From NCBI GenBank assembly GCA_025934735.1, contig JAICWP010000009.1:135640-199639 (forward strand): DNA of 64,000 bases, written 5' to 3'. Source of the stretch: Terriglobales bacterium (GTDB lineage: Bacteria > Acidobacteriota > Terriglobia > Terriglobales > Acidobacteriaceae). The position numbers and the translations under genes are program-made. Below the pieces are notes generated by a model that saw only the letters and a list, made by a program, of their open reading frames with translations, did no database searches and had not been told where the DNA came from. Positions 34,822 through 48,508 of this stretch are shown here, piece by piece. The stretch's first letter is position 1. Each line of letters begins with the position of its first letter.

Positions 34822-35508
34822 GTGGCTAAAGGAACCCAGACGCCGCGCCGCTACGAACGCGTTGTGCAGCAGATTGAGCAGTGGATTCTCGAAGGCAGTA
34901 TGAAACCCGGGGATCAGTTGCCCGGCGAACACGTTCTGGCGCAGCAGTTCGGGGTGAGCCGCACCGCGGTGCGGGAAGCCGCCAAGACGCTGCGGGAAAA
35001 AGGGCTGATTGAGCCGTGCTCCGGGCGCGGGACCTTTGTCACCCACGGCATGTCGCAGGTCATGCGGCAATCGCTTGACCTGGTGGCCAAAATGGGGCAG
35101 TTGGACGGGAGTGTCCACCTGGGTGAGGTACGCAATATCCTGGAGCCCCAGATCGCGGCCCTTGCCGCTACGCGCGTCGAGGCGCACCACTTGCGCAGCC
35201 TGAGCGAGGCCTTCCACGCCATGGATCAGAACCTGGATAATCCAGACGGCTATATTGAAGCCGATTTGGACTTTCACCTGGCGCTAGCAGAGGCGGCGGG
35301 CAACCCTCTGGTTCTTTCGCTGTTCGATTCCATTGTCGGCCTGCTGCGGGAAGAGCGTATGCGGCTGTTCCAGGTAAAAGGCGCTCCGGAGCGCAGCCAG
35401 CGGCACCACAAGTGCATTCTGGAAGCGTTGGAGCGCCGCGACCCGGATGCTGCGCGTGAGGCGATGCGCGCCCACCTGCAGGACGTCCGCAAATACTCAT
35501 CGCAATAA
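34822..35508 (+). CDS. FCD-type GntR transcriptional regulator (FadR subfamily)
   Basis: A 228-aa regulator. The N-terminal winged helix (about 8-75) has LPGEHVLAQQFGVSRTAVRE and the wing GRGTFVTHG. The C-terminal FCD domain keeps the metal/ligand residues: Asp and His in EADLDFHLALAEAAGN, then HHKCILEALERRD and the final MRAHL. FCD regulators sense small organic acids and bind TGGTNNNACCA-like palindromes. The GTG start follows GAGGGGAG. Nearby copies of GGTC-N-GACC (31067, 41542, 57820) are its best candidate sites; the pairing is inference. Confidence 0.9.
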   Translation: MAKGTQTPRRYERVVQQIEQWILEGSMKPGDQLPGEHVLAQQFGVSRTAVREAAKTLREKGLIEPCSGRGTFVTHGMSQVMRQSLDLVAKMGQLDGSVHLGEVRNILEPQIAALAATRVEAHHLRSLSEAFHAMDQNLDNPDGYIEADLDFHLALAEAAGNPLVLSLFDSIVGLLREERMRLFQVKGAPERSQRHHKCILEALERRDPDAAREAMRAHLQDVRKYSSQ

Positions 35509-36440: not shown

Positions 36441-37460
36441 TTACGGCGTTTTCATGTATCGGTCGAAATAGGCGATAGCATCTTTCACAGCTTGCATCTG
36501 GATGGGATCGGGGGCGTAGACTTTTTCCGCATTGCGCTTCACGAAGATGAAGCCGTGCTCATCGTGATCGTAAGACTTCCACTGCACATCTTTGCCGGCC
36601 TCGCGCAGCAGTTCGTAGTTGAGGCGGAAAACGTCCTGGTGGTGGTCGCGGTCGCGGCCCTCGATGAAGATTGGTGTGGTGATCGCGTTGATGCGCTTCA
36701 TGGCCACCGACATGTCAAGCTGCTTCCGCGCTTCGGCGGTAGCCCTGCGCTGCATTTCTTCGGTGTTCACCGTCAGCGTTTCCGGCGGGCGAGGAGTACC
36801 CGGCGCGGGGGGCCGCTTGGCCAGGTAATCCATGGAAGCCGGCTCGCTGGCGATGCCCGCGCGCAAGCCGTGGTACTCGCTGGCAATCTTCATCAGCATT
36901 TCACCGCCATGGCTCAGGCCCAGGTAGCCCACACGATTGGGGTCCACGTAGGGAAGCGTCTTCACGAACTTGATGATGGAGATGGCATCTTCATATTCCA
37001 GGGGCCCGCGGCTGAGAATCTGACGGCCCTCCTGCTTGCCTTCGACCAGCGGTTTGCCGTAGGTATCCTCCACCTCGGCGCGGTAGCGCATCCAGGCCAC
37101 CGCGTATCCGGCTTTTAGAAACTGCTCCAGAGTCCAGCTGCCGTTCTGCGTCCACTCACGAATCCAGCGCACCCCCATTCCGCCATTCATGTGCGCGAAC
37201 AGAACGACAGGGAAGGGGCCGTTGCCCGGAGGCTTGCGTAAACCGATGGGAGCGTAGAGCCCATCCACAATTTCGACGTAGATGATGTGCAGGGGGAACT
37301 CCGACCCTTCTACCGGCTCGACGATTTCGGTGACCGGGCTGGGCACCGGCTTGGTGAAGTAGATGTGGTCGGGATCAATGCTGGCATTTTTGCCCTGCTG
37401 AGCAAAAGCAGTGGCGGCGAGCAGGGCCGTGGCCGCGAGAAGCAGAATCATTACCCGCAC
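36441..37460 (-). CDS. Exported alpha/beta hydrolase
   Basis: A 339-aa protein with a signal peptide (MILLLAATALLAATAFAQQ). The nucleophile elbow is GLSHGGEM, the acid is in EGRDRDHHQ, and the base is in YDHDEHGF, giving a full Ser-Asp-His triad of the dienelactone-hydrolase / S9-like type. It would hydrolyse an ester or peptide bond in the periplasm. It is the last gene of the minus-strand flavoenzyme operon (26 bp after the flavoenzyme stop), and its stop codon abuts that of the convergent DUF4440 gene. Confidence 0.85.
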   Translation of the reverse strand: MRVMILLLAATALLAATAFAQQGKNASIDPDHIYFTKPVPSPVTEIVEPVEGSEFPLHIIYVEIVDGLYAPIGLRKPPGNGPFPVVLFAHMNGGMGVRWIREWTQNGSWTLEQFLKAGYAVAWMRYRAEVEDTYGKPLVEGKQEGRQILSRGPLEYEDAISIIKFVKTLPYVDPNRVGYLGLSHGGEMLMKIASEYHGLRAGIASEPASMDYLAKRPPAPGTPRPPETLTVNTEEMQRRATAEARKQLDMSVAMKRINAITTPIFIEGRDRDHHQDVFRLNYELLREAGKDVQWKSYDHDEHGFIFVKRNAEKVYAPDPIQMQAVKDAIAYFDRYMKTP

Positions 37461-37486: not shown

Positions 37487-39163
37487 TTAGGCTTTCTTGC
37501 TCACCACCGCCTCAATGCTGGTGCCGAAATCCTTCAGCATTACGACGGCGGCGTTGCGTCCGGGGGCGCCGCTCACCGAGCCGCCGGGATAGGTGCAGGC
37601 GCCAGTCTGGTAGAGCCCGGGAATGGGCATGCGGTGCTGCGCCCAGCCCGGCATGGGGCGCATGGGACCGGTTTGCGCCGCATTCTGCGCTCCCGCGTGG
37701 GCGCTGCCGTGCCAGAAATGCGGGTTCATGCGCTCGAAATCTATGGGGCTTTCGATAAATTCGCCCAGGAACTTGTCGGGCGTCAGGCTGGGACAGAAGC
37801 GCCGCAGTTGCTTGAGATTGGCTTCCGCCACCTGCTTCTTGATCTCGTCCCAGTGCTGCGGGCCTTGCTTGATGTCGTAGGGATACCAGGTGACCAGCTT
37901 GAGCGTGTGCATCCCGGCCGGGGCGCGGCTGGGGTCGGCGAGGGTGCAGCAAATGCAGTGCATGGGCGGATCTTCCATATTCACGTTGCCGCACGCGTCA
38001 TCCAGCGCTACCCGCAGGGCGCGCTCGGGCGAGACCAGCAGGCCAGTTTCCGCCGGCGAAATGGTGCCTCCGCCTTGCAGCGGGAACACGGGCGGCGCGC
38101 TGGTGGCGTAGTGGCTGACGAACATGGCCTCCTCCGCCTGCCAGGTATCCACGCCATCGAGGAAGTCTTGCGGCCAGAGTTCGTGCGGCGCCATATCCAC
38201 CAGGTGCTTAATGTGTAAGGTGGAAACCACCGCCTTGTCGGCGCGGTAAGAAGTGCCGTCGCCGCATTCCACCCCCACGCAGCGGCCGTTTTCAATGATG
38301 AAACGTTCCACCCACTTGTTGGGCAGAATCACCCCGTTGTGGGCTTCGATGTAGCGGCCCAGAGCCTCAGCCAATTTTCCTGAGCCGCCCTTGGGCATGG
38401 GTCGCCCGGAATGTTGCTGGCCGAAGGCCGTGTAGGCCACGCGACCGCTGACCGGCGCGTCGGGTGCTTCCGAGGTGATGTGCGCCAGGAACACCATGAA
38501 GGCGCGGGAGTGCTCATCTTCAAAATTCGCTTTGATGATTTCCCAGGCCGACATGGCCAGGCGGCGCTGCCACAGTCGCCCTCGGGGATGGGCGGCCAGG
38601 CGCTCCGGAAGCGATGGCCCAAAGCCGATGGGAGTAAACGTGGATTCCCGAAACATGGGCGCCACGGAATTGAATTCCTCATACATGCGGCGGTAAGCGG
38701 CGGCGTCCTTCTTGGAGAATTTGGCAAACTCGGCGATGGTGCGCTCCACATCGCGCCACTGGGTGATGTGGCTGCCATCCAGAAATGCCATGTGCATGAT
38801 GGGATCAGGGTCAATGTATTGCAGCCCGTAGTCGCGCAGCGGAATTTCGTTGTTGCGCAGCATGGGGTTGGACTGGATGAAATATTGGGCGGTGGAGCAG
38901 ACGTCATCCTGGAATCCGCGCAGGGTTAGTTCCGCGGTCTTGACCCCTCCGCCGATGGTGGGCCGGCCTTCAAGCACAACACAGCGGTAGCCCGCCTTGG
39001 CCAGATAGGCGGCAGTAATCAGGCTGTTGTGGCCCGCGCCGGCCACGACAATGTCGAAACGCTGGCTGCCGGGGCCCTGCTGGCCCATGGCTGCAAGAGG
39101 CTTGAGGACCAGAGGCGCGACCGCCGCCCCTTTGAGAAAACCGCGCCGCGTCATATCGCTCAT
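37487..39163 (-). CDS. Tat-exported FAD oxidoreductase (PYROXD2/phytoene-desaturase-like), copy 1
   Basis: A 558-aa flavoprotein. The N-terminus MSDMTRRGFLKGAAV is a twin-arginine signal, so it is exported folded with its cofactor. The dinucleotide fold starts FDIVVAGAGHNSLITAAYLA, and the C-terminal FAD clamp reads YPGGSVSGAPGRNAA; both match the PYROXD2 branch of the phytoene desaturase superfamily and argue against true carotenoid enzymes, which lack a Tat signal. It likely oxidises a hydrophobic or alicyclic substrate. The start at 39163 follows the cytochrome stop by 8 bp. Confidence 0.88.
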   Translation of the reverse strand: MSDMTRRGFLKGAAVAPLVLKPLAAMGQQGPGSQRFDIVVAGAGHNSLITAAYLAKAGYRCVVLEGRPTIGGGVKTAELTLRGFQDDVCSTAQYFIQSNPMLRNNEIPLRDYGLQYIDPDPIMHMAFLDGSHITQWRDVERTIAEFAKFSKKDAAAYRRMYEEFNSVAPMFRESTFTPIGFGPSLPERLAAHPRGRLWQRRLAMSAWEIIKANFEDEHSRAFMVFLAHITSEAPDAPVSGRVAYTAFGQQHSGRPMPKGGSGKLAEALGRYIEAHNGVILPNKWVERFIIENGRCVGVECGDGTSYRADKAVVSTLHIKHLVDMAPHELWPQDFLDGVDTWQAEEAMFVSHYATSAPPVFPLQGGGTISPAETGLLVSPERALRVALDDACGNVNMEDPPMHCICCTLADPSRAPAGMHTLKLVTWYPYDIKQGPQHWDEIKKQVAEANLKQLRRFCPSLTPDKFLGEFIESPIDFERMNPHFWHGSAHAGAQNAAQTGPMRPMPGWAQHRMPIPGLYQTGACTYPGGSVSGAPGRNAAVVMLKDFGTSIEAVVSKKA

Positions 39164-39171
39164 GAGGTCTC

Positions 39172-39786
39172 CTATCGTTGGGTGGACTTGGTCGCGGCCG
39201 CGCCAGCAGGCTGCCCGACCTGCTGCTGAAGCGAGGGCGCGGAGTGGCAGGTGCTGCACACCGTCTTGGCGTGGTTCTTCTCGTGGCAGGAGATGCACAC
39301 GCCCATGGTGGTCACGCTGGTTTTCTCATACATCGCCGGCATTTCTTGCACCGGGCCGTGGCAGTTCTGGCATTTCAGGCCCGCGGCAAGATGAAAACGA
39401 TGGCCCCATTTCACTCCGGGCAGCACCTTGTAGACGCGTACCCAGGGGATGGCCTGATGAGTGCTGTCGTACTCCGCCAGCTTCTTGATGGCGGGCGAAT
39501 CAGTGGCTACGGATTGATGGCAGGTCATGCAGGTGGCCGTCGCGGGGTAGGTCATCATGGTGCCCGGGTCGGGGTTGGTGTGGCAAAACTGGCAACCGAT
39601 TTTCAGTGCCAGGTGAGTCTTGTGGCTATAGGGCAGCGGTTGGGTGGGCGCGGCCGGATGCAGCGGGTTGTCGGGCACCAGTTGCGGGGGATATGCCGGT
39701 GCGCTCTGTGCCGGCATCTTTACGCCCGTGAAAACCACGACCGCCAATGCCGCGACCAACAGCGCAGAAGTTGGGCTAAGTCTCAC
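39172..39786 (-). CDS. Exported pentaheme cytochrome c (class III / c7-like)
   Basis: A 204-aa protein with a hydrophobic signal or anchor (LLVAALAVVVFTGV) and five CxxCH heme motifs: CQFCH (65-69), CMTCH (86-90), CQNCH (139-143), CISCH (164-168) and CSTCH (177-181). Extra His residues in SHKTHLALK and WGHRFHLAAG can serve as distal ligands, giving bis-His hemes. I set the start at the GTG at 39786, placed 6 bases after GGAGGT. It lies between two flavoenzyme genes, with 8 and 19 bp gaps, so it is very probably their periplasmic electron acceptor. Confidence 0.92.
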   Translation of the reverse strand: MRLSPTSALLVAALAVVVFTGVKMPAQSAPAYPPQLVPDNPLHPAAPTQPLPYSHKTHLALKIGCQFCHTNPDPGTMMTYPATATCMTCHQSVATDSPAIKKLAEYDSTHQAIPWVRVYKVLPGVKWGHRFHLAAGLKCQNCHGPVQEMPAMYEKTSVTTMGVCISCHEKNHAKTVCSTCHSAPSLQQQVGQPAGAAATKSTQR

Positions 39787-39805
39787 GACCGCACCTCCGA
39801 TTCTC

Positions 39806-41476
39806 CTAGGCTTTCCTGCTGACCACCTCTTCAATGCTGGTGCCGAAATCCTTCAGCATGACCACGGCCGCATTTCGGCCCGGGGCGCCGGTCACGGAAC
39901 CGCCGGGATGCGTGGTGGCGCCGGTCTGGTAGAGGCCGGGAATAGGCATGCGGTGCTGTGCCCAGCCCAGCATGGGGCGCATGGGTCCGGACTGCGCGGC
40001 ATCCATTCTGCCGCCGTGGGCGCTACCATGCCAGAAGTGCGGATTCATGCGCTCGATGTCGACCGGACTGGTGAGAAAGCGCGCCAGAATCTTGTCGTTG
40101 GTCAGGTTGGGCGAGAAGCGCCGCAGATAATTCAGGTGGGCTTGGTCCACCTGGTGCTTAATTTCGTCCCAGTGCTGCGGCCCTTCCTTCAGATTGTAAG
40201 GCTGGAAACCAATGATCTTGAGCGTGTGCATGCCCGGCGGCGTGCGCGAAGGATCGGCCACGCTGCAGCAGATGACCTGCAGGGGAGGCTGGTCGAGGTT
40301 GACCACGCCCGCAGTGTCATCGAAGCCAAATCGCAGCGCGCGGTCGGCGTTGGCGATCACACCCGCTTCGGTGGGCGTAAGGCTGCCGCCCTGAACCGCA
40401 TAGGTGGGCGCCACCGAGGTGGCGTAATGGCTGACGAACATGGTGCGCTCGCCTTGCCAGGTGTCCACCCCATCCAGGAAGTCCTGGCCCCAGAGCTGGG
40501 CCGGCGCCATCTTCACCAGGTGCTTAATGTGGATGGTAGAGAGCACGGCCTTAGAGGCGCGGTAGGAGCTGCCGTCATCGCACTCCACCCCGGCGCAGCG
40601 CCCGTTCTCGACAATGAAACTGCGCACCCATTTGTTGGTAAGAATCACGCCATTGTGCGCCTCAATGAAGCGCGCCAGGGCTTGGGTCAGCATTCCTGAG
40701 CCACCCTTGGGTAATGGGCGGCCGCCGTGCTGCTGGCCGGCAAAGCCATAGGCAAACCGTCCGGTCGCGGGATCGATGGGCGCTTCCGAGGAAAGGTGGC
40801 CCATGAACAGCAAGGCGGCGCGGGAGTGGTCGTCCTCAAAATTATCGCGGATGATCTCCCAGGCTGACATGGCCAGGCGGCGCTGCCACAGCTTGCCACG
40901 CGGGACTTTGGCCAGAAGCTCGCTCAGGGACGGCCCGAAGCCGATTGGGTTAAAGCTGGTGGCTCCAAATACCGCCTTTACCGAGTCGAATTCGGCCAGC
41001 ATGCGCCGGTAGGCGGCAGCATCCTTTTTGGAGAATTTGCCGAAGTCGGCGGCGGTGCGGTCGGGGTCGCGCCATTGGGTGAGATAGGTGCCGTCGCCGA
41101 ACACCACGTGAAAGATGGGATCGGGCGTGATGTACTCCAGACCATATTCTCCCAAGTGGAGCTCATCATTGCGCAGCAGGGGATTGGCCTGGATGCCGCT
41201 GTGGGCGGTGGAGCAGACGTCGTCATGGAAGCCGCGCAAGGTTAGCTGCGCGGTTTTGACTCCGCCACCCACTGTGGGCCGTCCTTCCAGCACGAGGCAG
41301 CGGTAGCCCGCCTTCGCCAGATAGGCGGCGGTGATCAGGCTATTGTGGCCGGCGCCGGCAACCACAATGTCGAAATGCTCAGCCGGAACGGCCTGCGAGT
41401 GCAGCGAAAGCGGGCCCAGTGCCAAAGGCGCAAGAGCCGCGCCCTTCATGAAACCGCGCCGGGTAATGGCGCACAT
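39806..41476 (-). CDS. Tat-exported FAD oxidoreductase (PYROXD2/phytoene-desaturase-like), copy 2
   Basis: A 556-aa paralog of the flavoenzyme at 37487, aligning end to end: twin-arginine MCAITRRGFMKGAAL, nucleotide fold FDIVVAGAGHNSLITAAYLA, shared blocks AHNGVIL.NKWV and GSGxLxxALxR, and C-terminal PGGSVTGAPGRNAA. It is the first gene of the operon. Differences between the copies concentrate in the middle, so they may act on different positions of one substrate or form a heterodimer. The start ATG follows AAAGGAGGCG, a strong ribosome-binding site. Confidence 0.88.
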   Translation of the reverse strand: MCAITRRGFMKGAALAPLALGPLSLHSQAVPAEHFDIVVAGAGHNSLITAAYLAKAGYRCLVLEGRPTVGGGVKTAQLTLRGFHDDVCSTAHSGIQANPLLRNDELHLGEYGLEYITPDPIFHVVFGDGTYLTQWRDPDRTAADFGKFSKKDAAAYRRMLAEFDSVKAVFGATSFNPIGFGPSLSELLAKVPRGKLWQRRLAMSAWEIIRDNFEDDHSRAALLFMGHLSSEAPIDPATGRFAYGFAGQQHGGRPLPKGGSGMLTQALARFIEAHNGVILTNKWVRSFIVENGRCAGVECDDGSSYRASKAVLSTIHIKHLVKMAPAQLWGQDFLDGVDTWQGERTMFVSHYATSVAPTYAVQGGSLTPTEAGVIANADRALRFGFDDTAGVVNLDQPPLQVICCSVADPSRTPPGMHTLKIIGFQPYNLKEGPQHWDEIKHQVDQAHLNYLRRFSPNLTNDKILARFLTSPVDIERMNPHFWHGSAHGGRMDAAQSGPMRPMLGWAQHRMPIPGLYQTGATTHPGGSVTGAPGRNAAVVMLKDFGTSIEEVVSRKA

Positions 41477-41587: not shown

Positions 41588-42754
41588 CTACGCGCTCTGG
41601 TACAGCTTGGTCATCACGAATTCGCGATGTCCCAGTGCTTCGGCGCAGGTCAGGCGGCCGTTGCAGGTGCGCAGCATGACATCAATCAGGCGGTCGCCGG
41701 CCTCGTCCAGGTTCATTTCGCGGCGCAGCAGGCCGGAGACGTCCAGGTCAACGTGCTCGCGCATGGTGCGCGCGGTGCGGGGATTGGCCGTGAGCTTGAT
41801 GACCGGTTCGATAGGATTGCCGATGATGTTGCCTTGCCCGGTGGGGAACAGGTGGACCACAAATCCCGCGGCAGCCTGCAAGGTCACGCACTCCGCAGCC
41901 GCGGACGAGGTATCCATGTAGTAGAGGCCGGGACCTTTCCCGGGCGCTTCCGCGGGTTTCAGGACATCAATAAACTTGGTTTTCTTACCGATCTTCTGCA
42001 GGTTGCCGAATGCTTTCTCCTCAATCGTGGTGAGGCCGCCGGCAATGTTGCCCTTAGTAGGCTGCGACTCCGAGAGGTCGCTGGTCTTGTGCCGTTCAAT
42101 GACCTCTTGATAGGCGTTGAACACCTGCATGAATTTGTCGCCTACCTGTTTGCTCGCGGCGCGGCTGGCACACACCACTTCGGCGCCAGTGAGTTCGGAA
42201 GTCTCTCCGAAGCAGTTGGTGACGTGCAGCGGGTCCAGCTTGTCAATCAGATTGCCGACCGTTGGACAGGAGCCCAGGCCGGAAGTGGTGTCGCTCTCGC
42301 CGCACTTGGTGGAGACAAACAGATCTTCCATAGAGCAGCGCTCGCGCTGTTTTTCCGTCGCCCATTGCACGAACTCCTGCGCCTTGCGCGAAGCGGCGGC
42401 GATGGTGCTGAGATCGCCGTTGGTTTCGATGGAGAAGCCGGCCACGGGCTTGCCGGTGGCGGCAATGCCTTCCACCACCCGGCCGGTCCAGCCCGGCTCA
42501 ATGCCGATGACCACGCAGGCGGCCACATTAGGATTGCAGCCGGTGCCGATCAGGGTGCGGAAATGCAGTTCCAGGTCCTCGCCGAATTGCAACCGCCCGT
42601 AAGCATGCGGCAAGGCCAGCGTGCCTTTAATGTTATTGGCCACGGCTTCCGCCGCCGCATTGGACAAGTCGTCCAGCGGCAGAATAATTACATGATTGCG
42701 AATTCCCACCCGCCCATTCTCGCGGCGATATCCGTAGAACTCGTAACGTGCCAT
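41588..42754 (-). CDS. UxaA-family dehydratase, large subunit
   Basis: A 388-aa enzyme of the altronate/galactarate dehydratase family (UxaA C-terminal, SuyB-like). Conserved cues are [14 protein letters not shown] at the start, GTGCNPNVA, the Cys-rich [19 protein letters not shown] (iron/Fe-S ligands by family) and late [12 protein letters not shown]. Family members remove water from sugar acids, or sulfite from sulfolactate; split large and small subunits are typical of SuyAB and some dehydratases. ATG 42754 lies 2 bp past the small-subunit stop and follows AGAGGTGG, so I prefer it to the GTG at 42763. Confidence 0.88.
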
Positions 42755-42756
42755 TC

Positions 42757-43041
42757 TCACCACCTCTTGGTTTTCAGGTTGTGGACGTGAACGTGGCGTC
42801 CTCTGCCAATGTCAGCCACGGCTCGGCCCACGTCGTGGCCGTACTTAAGGACGGTGTCGCCCGACTTGACGTCGCGCAGCGCGATCTTGTGCCCGAGCGG
42901 GACCGGGTCCAGCGACTTGAGCGTGATGGTCTCATCCGTCTCCATCACCCATCCCGTCAGGTCCTTGCCCGGCTGCACGTCTTCGACAACGACCACGCCG
43001 ACCGTGTCAGCCTTATCGTGGACGATGAAAGAGGTGGTCAT
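42757..43041 (-). CDS. UxaA-family dehydratase, small (SAF domain) subunit
   Basis: A 94-aa SAF-domain protein, the counterpart of the N-terminal domain of UxaA or of SuyA (starting [21 protein letters not shown], with [23 protein letters not shown] at the end). In fused homologs it precedes the large domain; here the two are separate genes next to each other. It lies 36 bp downstream of the GntR gene, so gntR and both subunits form an operon. Confidence 0.88.
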
Positions 43042-43907: not shown

Positions 43908-44996
43908 ATGAGCGTAGAGCCGGTCAAAGTCGGCATCATCGGGCTGGGACGCTGGGCCAAGGTCCTGACCCGCGCCGCCGCCAAATCCGACAAGCTGAAA
44001 ATTGTTGCCGCCTATAGCCGCTCCGAAGAGAAGCGCCAGAACTTCGCGCGTGAGATGGGAGTGCCCGCCGTTGCCGACCTCAAGACCATGCTGTCGTCGC
44101 CCGAGATCAAGGGCGCCATTCTCACTGTGCCCAATGAGCAGCACCTGCCGGTAGCACTGGAAGTGGCCAAGGCGGGCAAGCACGTGTACACGGAAAAGCC
44201 CATTGCCAGCACGCTGGAAGAGGGCTTGCAGATCGCCGCCCTGGAAAAGCAGTATGGCATCACCGTCACCGTGGGCCACAGCGCGCGCCTGATGGCTGGC
44301 GTACGCGCTATTCGTGAGGCCATTGACCGCGGCGAACTGGGCCGCGTCGCTTTCCTCGAGGCCAACTTCTCCAACGAGCGTGCCCTGGAACTTACGCCCA
44401 ACACGTGGCGCTGGTATAAGGACCGGGCGCCGGGCGGGCCGTTATCGCAACTCGCTATCCATCAGTTCGACCTGCTGCACTACCTGGGCGGCGAAATTCA
44501 GGAAGTCGGCTCCATGTCCTCCAAGCTTTCTCCCGTGGGCGCCGAGGTGGATGACCAGTCCATGACCCTGCTTAAGTTCACCGATGGCAAGGTTGGCTAC
44601 GTGGGCTCGTGCTGGACTTCGCCCGGCGTGTTTGCTGTGCGCGTGTTCGGATCCAAGGGCCTGATGCATTATGAAATTGATTTCGGCACCTGGGACTCGC
44701 CTGACAAGTTGCACGTCACTTCCACGCTCTACATCCAGCGCGGCAAGGACGGGTATGGCAAACGCGAAGAGCTGAAAGTTCCGCCCAGTGACATGTTCCG
44801 CGCCGAGCTGGAGATGTTCGCGGAAAGCTGTCGCACCGGCAAATCCGGCGAACTGAGCGCGCAAAACGGCAATGTTGCCGTGGCCGTGGTGTATGCCGCG
44901 CTGCGCTCCATTGAGAACCACGGCCGCTACACCCGGATTGCGGATGTCATGCAGGAAGCACGCGAGCGCCTGGCTGAGAGGAGCGCCATTGCCTAG
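43908..44996 (+). CDS. Gfo/Idh/MocA-family NAD(P) oxidoreductase
   Basis: A 362-aa dehydrogenase. The N-terminal Rossmann fold opens VKVGIIGLGRWAKVLTRAA; the EKP motif VYTEKPIAST places the catalytic Lys at 97; the C-terminal domain carries LAIHQFDLLHYLGGE, whose His belongs to the family's substrate site. Members oxidise the hydroxyl of sugars, inositols or sugar acids. First gene of a five-gene operon divergent from gntR-UxaA, so it probably feeds or follows the dehydratase in one pathway. Confidence 0.88.
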   Translation: MSVEPVKVGIIGLGRWAKVLTRAAAKSDKLKIVAAYSRSEEKRQNFAREMGVPAVADLKTMLSSPEIKGAILTVPNEQHLPVALEVAKAGKHVYTEKPIASTLEEGLQIAALEKQYGITVTVGHSARLMAGVRAIREAIDRGELGRVAFLEANFSNERALELTPNTWRWYKDRAPGGPLSQLAIHQFDLLHYLGGEIQEVGSMSSKLSPVGAEVDDQSMTLLKFTDGKVGYVGSCWTSPGVFAVRVFGSKGLMHYEIDFGTWDSPDKLHVTSTLYIQRGKDGYGKREELKVPPSDMFRAELEMFAESCRTGKSGELSAQNGNVAVAVVYAALRSIENHGRYTRIADVMQEARERLAERSAIA

Positions 44997-45780
44997 CCGC
45001 TATTTCGTGGAGCTGACGCAGCCGGAAATCGCAGCCCACTTCAAGAAGAATCCGCTGGTGATTCTGGCGGCCGGAAGCGTGGAGCAGCACGGTCCCCACC
45101 TGCCCACCGGCACCGATATGTACGCGGTGAATGGAATTGCGGAAGCGGTGGCGGAGCGCCTGGATGGCCTGGTGCTGCCGGGAAGCATGGTTGGCGTCAC
45201 GCCCTTGCACATGCCCTATGAGGGCACCATCACGCTGACTCCGGAGACGTACCTGCGCGTGATAACGGAAACCTGCGCCTCCACCGCAAAACACGGGGCG
45301 AAATACCTGCTGATCATCAACTGGCACGAAGGCAATATTCCTTCTCTCGCCATCGCGGCGGAGGCCCTGCACCGCGAGCACGGCATGACCGTGGTGACAG
45401 CGCAGGCCTGCTATGTGGCCGCGGACCTGTTTGGCCCGGAGTGCAACGGACTTACCCATGGCGGCGAAATCGAAGCGCTGGCCGTGCTGGCGCGACGGCC
45501 GGAACTGGTGCACCTGGATCGCATTGACAACTCCTCCGAGCAGACGCACGCCAGCAAGATGGATAAGCTGCGGCGCACCCGCAGCTATCAGCCCGTGCTC
45601 ACCGACGTCCGCTCCATCGCGCCTACCGGCTGGTATGGCAGCCCGCAGCCGGCCACGGCCGAGAAGGGTGTGCGCATGGTGCGCGCCATCGCCGACGCCA
45701 TCGCCAAAGAAGTAACGCAAATCTTCCGGCAACTTGACGCGGTGCAGGGCGGGGTGGGCGAGATTAAAAAATTGCACTAG
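44989..45780 (+). CDS. Creatininase-family amidohydrolase
   Basis: A 263-aa metal-dependent hydrolase. Family ligands appear in AAGSVEQHGPHLPTGTD (Glu, His, Asp) and in INWHEGN and THGGEIEAL. Creatininase homologs open cyclic amides or lactone-like rings, or act in cofactor maturation. I set the start at TTG 44989, overlapping the preceding stop by 8 bp, with GAGAGGAG before it; the longer frame is antisense-like. Ring opening of the oxidised product of the previous enzyme is a reasonable guess. Confidence 0.8.
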   Translation: MPSRYFVELTQPEIAAHFKKNPLVILAAGSVEQHGPHLPTGTDMYAVNGIAEAVAERLDGLVLPGSMVGVTPLHMPYEGTITLTPETYLRVITETCASTAKHGAKYLLIINWHEGNIPSLAIAAEALHREHGMTVVTAQACYVAADLFGPECNGLTHGGEIEALAVLARRPELVHLDRIDNSSEQTHASKMDKLRRTRSYQPVLTDVRSIAPTGWYGSPQPATAEKGVRMVRAIADAIAKEVTQIFRQLDAVQGGVGEIKKLH

Positions 45781-45791
45781 GTGGGCTGAGG

Positions 45792-46172
45792 ATGGCGCGA
45801 GTCTGCACGCAGGCGGAGGCAAAACGGCTGGGCTTGCCCGGACGCACCGCGCTGGAGCTTGTTTCCGGCGAAAAGGGCGCGCGGGCGGTCACGCTGCGCC
45901 TGGTGGAAATACCGGTTCCAGCGCCCGGCGAAACGCCGCGTGCGCCGCATCATCACAGCGATTTCGAAGAGTGTATTTACGTGTTGGCAGGCCGGGGCAC
46001 CACGTTTGCGGATAGCGGCACGTATCAGTTGCAGGCCGGAGACGCGCTTCTGGTTCCTCCTGGGGAGAAGCACGTAACCCGCAATACCGAAAGCGAGCCG
46101 CTGGTGCTGTTGTGTTTTTTTCCGGTGGCTGATATCGCCGGCGGAACCAGGGAACCAGGGGTTCGATCCTAG
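45792..46172 (+). CDS. Cupin-domain protein
   Basis: A 126-aa single-domain cupin. Motif 1 reads APHHHSDFEECIYVLAGRGT-like (His, His, Glu ligands) and motif 2 GDALLVPPGEKHVTRN contributes the last His. Small cupins in sugar-acid clusters act as isomerases, epimerases or metal-dependent lyases. It lies 11 bp after the creatininase gene, inside the operon. Confidence 0.85.
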   Translation: MARVCTQAEAKRLGLPGRTALELVSGEKGARAVTLRLVEIPVPAPGETPRAPHHHSDFEECIYVLAGRGTTFADSGTYQLQAGDALLVPPGEKHVTRNTESEPLVLLCFFPVADIAGGTREPGVRS

Positions 46173-46191
46173 ACGGTACAGGGGCCATCGA

Positions 46192-47166
46192 ATGGATGTG
46201 GTATGTCTACGGCCAGAATCTGATTTCGCGCGGGTGGGGGCAATGCCGCCGCCCTCGCTCGCCGTGGTTTATCGCGCCCCCGACAGTTGCGACGTAGGCA
46301 AAATAGTGAAGCAGGCCCGTGCTCTCGTGATTCCTGCTGTGGGACCGCGCCTTGCCCCCGCATTGTTTGAAGGCAGCAAGCTGGAACTTGTGCAGGTAAC
46401 CGGCGCCGGGCTGGATCGGTTGGACCAGGCGACGCTGAAGCGCCTCGGCATCCCCGTCGCTAACGTGCCTGCGGCGAGCAATCATGCGGTCGCGGAATAT
46501 GCCGTTGCAGCTGCCATTGTGTTATTGCGACGCTTGGCCTGGGCGGATAGCGAAGTTCGCAAGGGCGCGTATAGCCAGTGCCGCGAAACTCTGGTCGCCG
46601 CCAACCTGAGCGGGCTGGAAGGATTGCTGGTGGGCGTGGTGGGCCTGGGCACGATCGGTTTGGCGGCCGCAACCGCATTTCACAAGATGGGCTGCCGGAT
46701 CTGCTATTACGATCCCGCACCCCGCGACCGCGCTGCGGCAGAGGTGCTGAACGCACGCCAGGTATCCTTGCGCGAATTGCTGGAGACGGCGGATGTAATC
46801 AGCCTGCACGTGCCTTTGCTGCCCGAAACTAAAGGCATGATCGGCGAGCGGCAACTCGCGTCCATGAAGCATGGCGCGGTCCTGGTGCAAGCCTCGCGCG
46901 GCGGAGTGGTGGACGAACTGGCGCTGGCCGGCCATTTGCGCTCTGGCCACCTGGGTGGCGCCGCAGTGGACGTTTACTCCGGCGAACCGCCCGCAACTGA
47001 CAGTCCGCTGCTCGCGCTGGCAGCCGAGGGTTGCGAACGCCTGTGGCTCACGCCGCATATTGCCGGGGTCACGCGCCAGGCATCCGAGGTGCTGTTTCGG
47101 ACGGCATGGTCGAATGTGGAACGCGTATTAATTGCACGTCAGCCACCATTGAATCGTGTGTACTGA
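46192..47166 (+). CDS. D-isomer 2-hydroxyacid dehydrogenase
   Basis: A 324-aa NAD-linked dehydrogenase that interconverts 2-oxo and D-2-hydroxy acids. The NAD fold opens GLLVGVVGLGTIGLAAATAF; the catalytic Arg is in VQASRGGVVDEL; the Glu is in the following VDVYSGEPP region; the His is in WLTPHIAGVTRQ. It follows the cupin by 19 bp. It could reduce the 2-oxo acid released by the UxaA dehydratase. Confidence 0.88.
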   Translation: MDVVCLRPESDFARVGAMPPPSLAVVYRAPDSCDVGKIVKQARALVIPAVGPRLAPALFEGSKLELVQVTGAGLDRLDQATLKRLGIPVANVPAASNHAVAEYAVAAAIVLLRRLAWADSEVRKGAYSQCRETLVAANLSGLEGLLVGVVGLGTIGLAAATAFHKMGCRICYYDPAPRDRAAAEVLNARQVSLRELLETADVISLHVPLLPETKGMIGERQLASMKHGAVLVQASRGGVVDELALAGHLRSGHLGGAAVDVYSGEPPATDSPLLALAAEGCERLWLTPHIAGVTRQASEVLFRTAWSNVERVLIARQPPLNRVY

Positions 47167-47200
47167 GAGCTGAGGGACAAAGCAGGAGTTAACAGCGCAT

Positions 47201-48508
47201 ATGCCGCGGCGCCGACGCTGGTACACCACCCTTTACGTGCAGGTGATCATTGCCATCCTGCTGGGGATCGCGCTGGGACACCTGTTCCCCAAGGCAGGAA
47301 TTGCCTGCAAGCCCCTGGGTGACGCCTTCATTGATCTCATTCGCATGATGATCGCGCCCGTGGTGTTCTGCACCGTCGTGCAAGGCATCGCCTCGATGAG
47401 CGACCTGAAGAAGGTGGGCCGCATCGGGGTGAAGGCGCTGGTGTACTTTGAGGTGGTTTCCACCTTCGCGCTTGCTATCGGCCTGGTCATCGGGCACGTG
47501 CTGCACCCGGGGGCCGGTTTCAATGTTGACGCTGCCACGCTCGATCCCAAAGCGGTAGCCGCTTATGCCGGGCATGCCGGCGAAGTGGGCATTATTGCGC
47601 GGCTCATGGCCGCCATTCCCAAGACCTTCGTGGACGCCTTTGTTCACGGCGACGTGCTGCAGGTTCTTGTGGTTTCCGTCCTGACCGGCTTCGCCATTGC
47701 TCTCATGGGGCCCGCCGGGACCAAGGTAACCCGGGCGGTTGAGGCTGCCGGAAAGGTTTTTTTCGGCATCGTGCGGATTATCGTGAAGGCCGCTCCCATC
47801 GGCGCCTTCGGGGCTATGGCATTCACGGTTGGACGGTATCGCATCAGTTCGTTATCGAACCTGGCGGCGCTGATCGGCACCTTCTATCTGACCAGCGCCG
47901 TCTTCGTGCTGCTGGTGCTGGGCATCGTCAGCCGCCTCACCGGCTTTTCCATCCTGCGCTTCCTGGCCTACATAAAGGATGAGTTGCTGATCGTGCTGGG
48001 CACCAGTTCCTCCGAGACCGTGCTGCCCGACATGATGCAGAAACTGGAACGGTTGGGCGCTTCCGCCTCGGTGGTGGGCCTGGTGTTTCCCACCGGATAC
48101 AGCTTCAACACCGACGGCACGAATATATATATGACTCTCTCGGTCTTGTTCCTGGCGCAGGCGACCAACACTCACATGACCCTGGTGCAGGAGCTGGGAA
48201 TTTTGCTGTTCGCCATGATTGCCTCCAAGGGCGGATCCGGCGTGACCGGCAACGGGTTCGTTACGCTGGCGGCTACCCTTGCCGCGGTGCCTTCTATTCC
48301 CATTCAGGCGCTGGCGCTTTTGCTGGGCGTGGATAAATTCATGAGCGAATGTAGGGCGCTGACCAACGTTGTAGGCAATGGCGTAGCCACGCTGGTGGTC
48401 AGCCGCTGGGAGGGCGAGTTGAGCGCGGCCGATCTGCGGGAAAGCATGGCTGTCCCCGCTCCGGCAGCAAGTACGCAGCCTGAACACGTGCGTGCCGCCG
48501 GCAGCTAA
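47201..48508 (+). CDS. Dicarboxylate/amino acid:cation symporter (DAACS family)
   Basis: A 435-aa secondary transporter of the DctA/GltP fold with eight membrane helices plus the two hairpin loops. Family motifs are present: [12 protein letters not shown] (hairpin 1) and [13 protein letters not shown] (TM7). It would import C4-dicarboxylates or related carboxylates using a cation gradient, and closes the five-gene operon, so the pathway substrate or a by-product is probably a carboxylate. Next to it lies the RND pump operon after a 140-bp gap. Confidence 0.92.

Follow-up and report, generated by a model that had tools for sequence, protein, structure and literature searches.

A predicted periplasmic module of twin-arginine flavoenzymes and a pentaheme cytochrome in a Terriglobales bacterium

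Genes at the locus

The window analyzed here, a 64,000-nucleotide stretch of DNA from a Terriglobales bacterium, carries two flavoenzyme genes that enclose the gene of a pentaheme c-type cytochrome. Read along the minus strand, flavoenzyme B is followed after 19 bp by the cytochrome and, after a further 8 bp, by flavoenzyme A. This order and both gap lengths, as given in the original prediction, proved exact when the coordinates were rechecked. The module and its surroundings comprise the following features.

39806..41476, minus strand: flavoenzyme B, 556 aa; twin-arginine (Tat) signal TRRGFMKG, FAD motif GAGHNS, Amino_oxidase/CrtI-like fold
39172..39786, minus strand: pentaheme c-type cytochrome, 204 aa; GTG start, ActA-like, Sec-type signal (by inspection)
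37487..39163, minus strand: flavoenzyme A, 558 aa; Tat signal TRRGFLKG, sister of flavoenzyme B
36441..37460, minus strand: secreted alpha/beta-hydrolase (DLH/Peptidase_S9-like), 26 bp downstream of flavoenzyme A
41588..42763, minus strand: UxaA-like protein (altronate/galactarate dehydratase C-terminal part), 111 bp upstream; module membership uncertain
42757..43041, minus strand: SAF-domain subunit of a split UxaA-like dehydratase; module membership uncertain
34822..35508, plus strand: GntR/FCD regulator; several genomes of family f91 have relatives (about 55-70%) close to the module
43908..48508, plus strand: GFO/IDH/MocA, creatininase-fold, D-2-hydroxyacid dehydrogenase, and DctA genes; genome G405 carries homologs (66-80%) close to its module

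As the alpha/beta-hydrolase gene starts only 26 bp past flavoenzyme A, it is probably the fourth gene of an operon; homologs of 38-39% are found near the module at four other loci. No UxaA-like gene lies beside the module in the neighborhoods of other genomes compared.

Family, fold, and export of the flavoenzymes

Flavoenzymes A and B are 69% identical. The twin-arginine signals that had been reported for both are borne out by the NCBIfam Tat model TIGR01409, which scores flavoenzyme B at 24.1 bits and flavoenzyme A at 18.1 bits against a cut-off of 16.7. Of 15 aligned relatives, 13 are matched by this model at E<=0.1; signal peptides are called here from the motif and this one HMM. Both proteins exceed the gathering cut-off of Pfam Amino_oxidase (PF01593; 49.6 and 53.3 bits versus 19.8). 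The closest NCBIfam names are those of carotenoid enzymes, and both models score far under their cut-offs: 236.9 and 239.4 bits versus 1000 for the CrtO beta-carotene ketolase (NF045689), and 94.4 and 100.8 bits versus 238.1 for the CrtI phytoene desaturase family (TIGR02734).

An AlphaFold2 model of flavoenzyme B, built from a final input of 51 diverse sequences, reached a pLDDT of 90.7, with values under 50 confined to the first 32 residues; an earlier input of 15 close relatives had given 61.5. Foldseek ranks a carotenoid desaturase (4rep) first for this model, followed by CrtI (4dgk), two archaeal oxidoreductases, and then NicA2. Among PDB sequence matches of the flavoenzyme at E<=0.001 there is no NicA2 or Pnao chain. 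The module enzymes share fold and FAD-binding architecture with carotenoid desaturases and CrtO, but differ from them in being exported, linked to a cytochrome, and below all curated cut-offs.

In the phylogeny, flavoenzymes A and B are sisters (support, 98/88); they stem from a lineage-specific duplication, which makes the exact sandwich a local variant. We had considered the gene order of the window as ancestral and dropped this idea, as relatives mostly show one Tat flavoenzyme followed by the cytochrome and A and B are sisters. A second sandwich of two Tat flavoenzymes around a cytochrome occurs only in G405 among the sampled loci.

A stand-alone ActA-like cytochrome

The five CxxCH motifs attributed to the cytochrome are present by count, as they are in all 39 module cytochromes counted. 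Its matches among solved structures are to ActA of alternative complex III, in four chains (8k9e, 6f0k, 6lod, and 6btm), with E=7.6e-29 for 8k9e and E=9.2e-21 for 6f0k. The five-heme domain is shared with ActA, and the alignment spans most of the heme region. Unlike ActA of the complex, however, the module cytochrome stands alone, with no ActB or ActC gene beside it among the window gene families checked. The QrcA menaquinone reductase subunit model (NF041781) gives 62.1 bits versus a cut-off of 180. The genome has its own ActA on contig C44, together with ActB-like and NrfD-like genes and with 36% identity to the module cytochrome. The 39 cytochromes linked to flavoenzymes all fall into a single clade (support, 99/94), which is present in 98% of bootstrap trees.

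Conservation of the flavoenzyme-cytochrome pair

A pattern-based scan of 84,980 species genomes, which reaches close relatives only, returned 12 close flavoenzyme relatives, all from Acidobacteria, and one Actinocorallia protein at 28%. A pentaheme cytochrome gene lies 3' of the Tat flavoenzyme in 12 of the 12 close relatives and also at one more distant locus. When 399 genomes of the class were searched with a profile, 36 gave matches, some of them not Tat-bearing: the genome of the window itself and 35 from family f91. Two further matching genomes, from two further families, were found in a phylum-wide sample. Apart from this genome, the family to which the window belongs gave no match at the threshold of the 399-genome search, which fits horizontal gain of the module or its loss in the others.

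The neighborhoods of 40 loci were compared, 34 with a Tat flavoenzyme and 6 with Tat-less homologs only. The cytochrome is present at 29 of the 34 Acidobacteriota loci with a Tat-bearing homolog and at none of the 6 with Tat-less homologs. At each of the 29, the gene immediately 5' of the cytochrome is a Tat copy, even where the same operon holds a Tat-less paralog. Four Tat loci (L086, L088, L092, and L095) have no cytochrome close by and carry one elsewhere in the genome; the fifth exception ends at a contig end. These counts are inflated by relatedness, many of the sampled genomes being close kin, and do not represent independent events. With dozens of genomes showing the pair, chance is not the explanation. 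Co-occurrence in other genomes, which the original prediction had proposed as a check, is therefore found, and homologs that always lack both cytochrome and Tat signal, which it had named as evidence against itself, are not what we observe.

Two observations stand beside these counts. The Tat flavoenzymes of L086, L088, and L092 could possibly share a cytochrome in trans. At another locus (L033, 6354-9544, contig C10 of genome G000), tandem Tat-less CrtI-like genes, ~28% identical to flavoenzyme A, have no cytochrome nearby.

Partners of the wider cytochrome family

With the cytochrome as query, 148 of the 399 class genomes gave matches, and the high-scoring ones (E<1e-52) fall in flavoenzyme-bearing genomes only. 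Seven high-scoring cytochromes that were found by this search alone also adjoin a flavoenzyme. Outside the flavoenzyme group, 33 loci were inspected, with partners counted on the same strand. A GMC oxidoreductase is the partner at 14 of these, usually with a gluconate-2-dehydrogenase subunit 3; other partners are spermidine-dehydrogenase-like proteins (three loci; E=1e-132 against SpdH), an FMN-dependent dehydrogenase and a PQQ dehydrogenase (one locus each), and GSDH (three loci, an assignment that, like that of FGE below, derives from one Pfam-tested protein and look-alike N-termini). The sister cytochromes of the module clade are those beside SpdH-like flavoenzymes with a Tat motif, at three loci. 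Given these partners, a role as acceptor for dehydrogenases is the simplest common denominator.

At six loci of a further family, f97, an ActA-like cytochrome gene adjoins an FGE-sulfatase-like gene; no dehydrogenase was recognized at these loci, and an ispC-like gene lies on the other side in most. A few of the 33 loci have no assigned partner.

Proposed function and known counterparts

When these results are taken together, we consider it likely, on the grounds of sequence comparison, that the products of the three genes make up a flavin dehydrogenase system of the periplasm in which electrons pass to the pentaheme cytochrome. Both flavoenzymes would fold with FAD in the cytoplasm before Tat export, while the cytochrome would be exported through Sec and loaded with five hemes. 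In the periplasm, each flavoenzyme would take two electrons from an organic substrate and hand them singly to the pentaheme cytochrome instead of reducing O2, and the cytochrome would deliver them to the respiratory chain. We infer the localization, the direction of electron flow, the acceptor role of the cytochrome, and the electron transfer from flavoenzyme to cytochrome. The genome carries TatC, cytochrome c assembly proteins, and alternative complex III. Among the points against this model, the flavoenzyme branch is structurally nearer to carotenoid desaturases than to amine dehydrogenases.

A characterized system shows the same arrangement. In Pseudomonas putida S16, cycN lies between nicA2 and pnao, NicA2 and Pnao are Tat-exported, and CycN is their cytochrome c acceptor, with electron transfer having been measured in this system (PMC12224317). 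As at our locus, two Tat flavoenzymes of amine oxidoreductase fold flank the gene of an exported c-type cytochrome (PMC12224317, PMC9396064). Among NicA2-related flavoenzymes, a Tat signal and an adjacent cytochrome gene were shown by experiment to predict cytochrome-using dehydrogenases (PMC12224317). The module flavoenzymes have the Tat signal and, next to them, a cytochrome c gene whose product bears a Sec signal (by inspection), and they fall outside the NicA2-related sequence clades. They differ from the S16 system in that they belong to a CrtO/CrtI-like branch and in that the acceptor is five-heme and ActA-like. Spermidine dehydrogenase (SpdH; PDB 7d9f-7d9j) offers a second comparison, as SpdH-like Tat flavoenzymes of Acidobacteriota also adjoin an ActA-like pentaheme cytochrome; the module flavoenzymes are, however, a different flavoenzyme family.

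The original prediction had spoken of a novel electron route in which an exported oxidase passes electrons to c-type hemes. A periplasmic module whose exported flavoenzyme would donate electrons to c-type hemes is well supported by the pairing, the single cytochrome clade, and the dehydrogenase partners of the sister cytochromes. The route itself has support in outline but is not novel in principle, since NicA2-CycN-Pnao forms the same sandwich (PMC12224317). The word oxidase is probably wrong, because an enzyme coupled to a cytochrome is a dehydrogenase. With the logic already known, what is new is the enzyme branch, which is CrtO/CrtI-like, and the five-heme ActA-like acceptor. Full-text literature searches, whose coverage excludes most subscription papers, returned no description of the module.

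In a broader proposal, to which we give about even chances, the ActA-type pentaheme cytochrome is a plug-in acceptor on many unrelated periplasmic dehydrogenases of Acidobacteriota (CrtO-like, SpdH, GMC, FMN, PQQ, GSDH, and perhaps Mo-hydroxylases), and the CrtO/CrtI-like branch is an exported, cytochrome-coupled dehydrogenase of some carbon compound. If so, cytochrome-coupled flavin dehydrogenases also arose away from the NicA2-like branch, within a superfamily that takes its name from carotenoid enzymes, and abundant soil bacteria have turned a cytochrome domain of a respiratory complex into a free-standing acceptor for many oxidations in the periplasm. A Tat signal with an ActA-like neighbor could then serve as a genome-based rule for finding uncharacterized dehydrogenases and supply candidates for substrate screening.

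Alternative readings

It is conceivable, and in our view unlikely, that the flavoenzymes are periplasmic oxidases using O2 and that the cytochrome serves another enzyme, such as a periplasmic Mo-hydroxylase. Homologs of the Mo-hydroxylase large subunit are found at 17 of the 34 Tat loci, some of these matches being only about 30% identical, and the few Tat flavoenzymes with no cytochrome nearby, noted above, would also fit. As such a homolog is near 16 of the 29 cytochrome-bearing loci, the cytochrome could serve the Mo-hydroxylase as well or instead, and the same cytochrome may serve both enzymes. Against the oxidase reading, the other 13 of the 29 have no Mo gene nearby, whereas the Tat flavoenzyme always adjoins the cytochrome; the window has no Mo-hydroxylase beside the module, the nearest in the genome being 32% identical and on other contigs; and most of the Tat flavoenzymes that have been tested and are encoded beside a cytochrome are dehydrogenases (PMC12224317). 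A Mo-hydroxylase as obligatory partner was dropped for its absence from those 13 loci and the lack of a close copy in the window's genome. In many relatives, the Mo-hydroxylase large subunit and a [2Fe-2S] subunit come after the cytochrome; the large subunit at L010 (8793-10952) and its relatives carry a Tat-like RRDFFK motif.

The flow of electrons could also be reversed, with the cytochrome donating to the exported flavoenzymes and these reducing an external acceptor in the manner of fumarate reductase. Saturases occur alongside desaturases in the CrtI-like superfamily, and pairs of flavoprotein and multiheme cytochrome of the fumarate reductase kind run reductively, which would favor such a direction. 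We nevertheless regard it as unlikely, as related cytochromes pair with dehydrogenase families (SpdH, GMC, FMN_dh, PQQ, and GSDH) and no quinol-oxidizing partner gene was recognized beside the module in the neighborhoods compared.

That the flavoenzymes are a CrtO ketolase or CrtI desaturase that, once exported, acts on carotenoids of the envelope, as their top NCBIfam names (CrtO and CrtI family) and top fold match, a carotenoid desaturase, might suggest, is very hard to reconcile with scores far under the curated cut-offs (237 vs 1000 and 94 vs 238) and with recognized neighbors that are not carotenoid genes; the family names reflect fold ancestry.

Neighboring genes and the possible substrate

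The setting looks catabolic, given the hydrolase, the GntR/FCD regulators, DctA, and the dehydratase-like genes, and our best guess is that the substrate is an organic compound handled by the catabolic cluster. An assignment of the substrate from the neighbors failed, as these vary between genomes and include DctA, 2-oxoacid dehydrogenase E1/E2, M24, UxaA-like, GFO, and creatininase-fold genes. DctA is near the module at 11 loci, and 2-oxoacid dehydrogenase E1/E2 together with an M24 protein at 12 (counted by E1-beta); the M24 protein is DddP-like, with 111 bits versus a cut-off of 600. In the window, the UxaA-like dehydratase (41588-43041) is split into SAF-domain and C-terminal proteins whose genes overlap by 7 bp, and a GntR/FCD regulator adjoins it.

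The genes at 43908..48508 are a possible pathway context of the module. In G405, one 58 kb contig (C91) joins a flavoenzyme/cytochrome module to homologs of the window genes, so that the region in its entirety could represent a catabolic cluster common to both; these homologs comprise GFO (80%), creatininase-fold (72%), D-2-hydroxyacid dehydrogenase (66%), DctA (68%), and GntR (67%) proteins.
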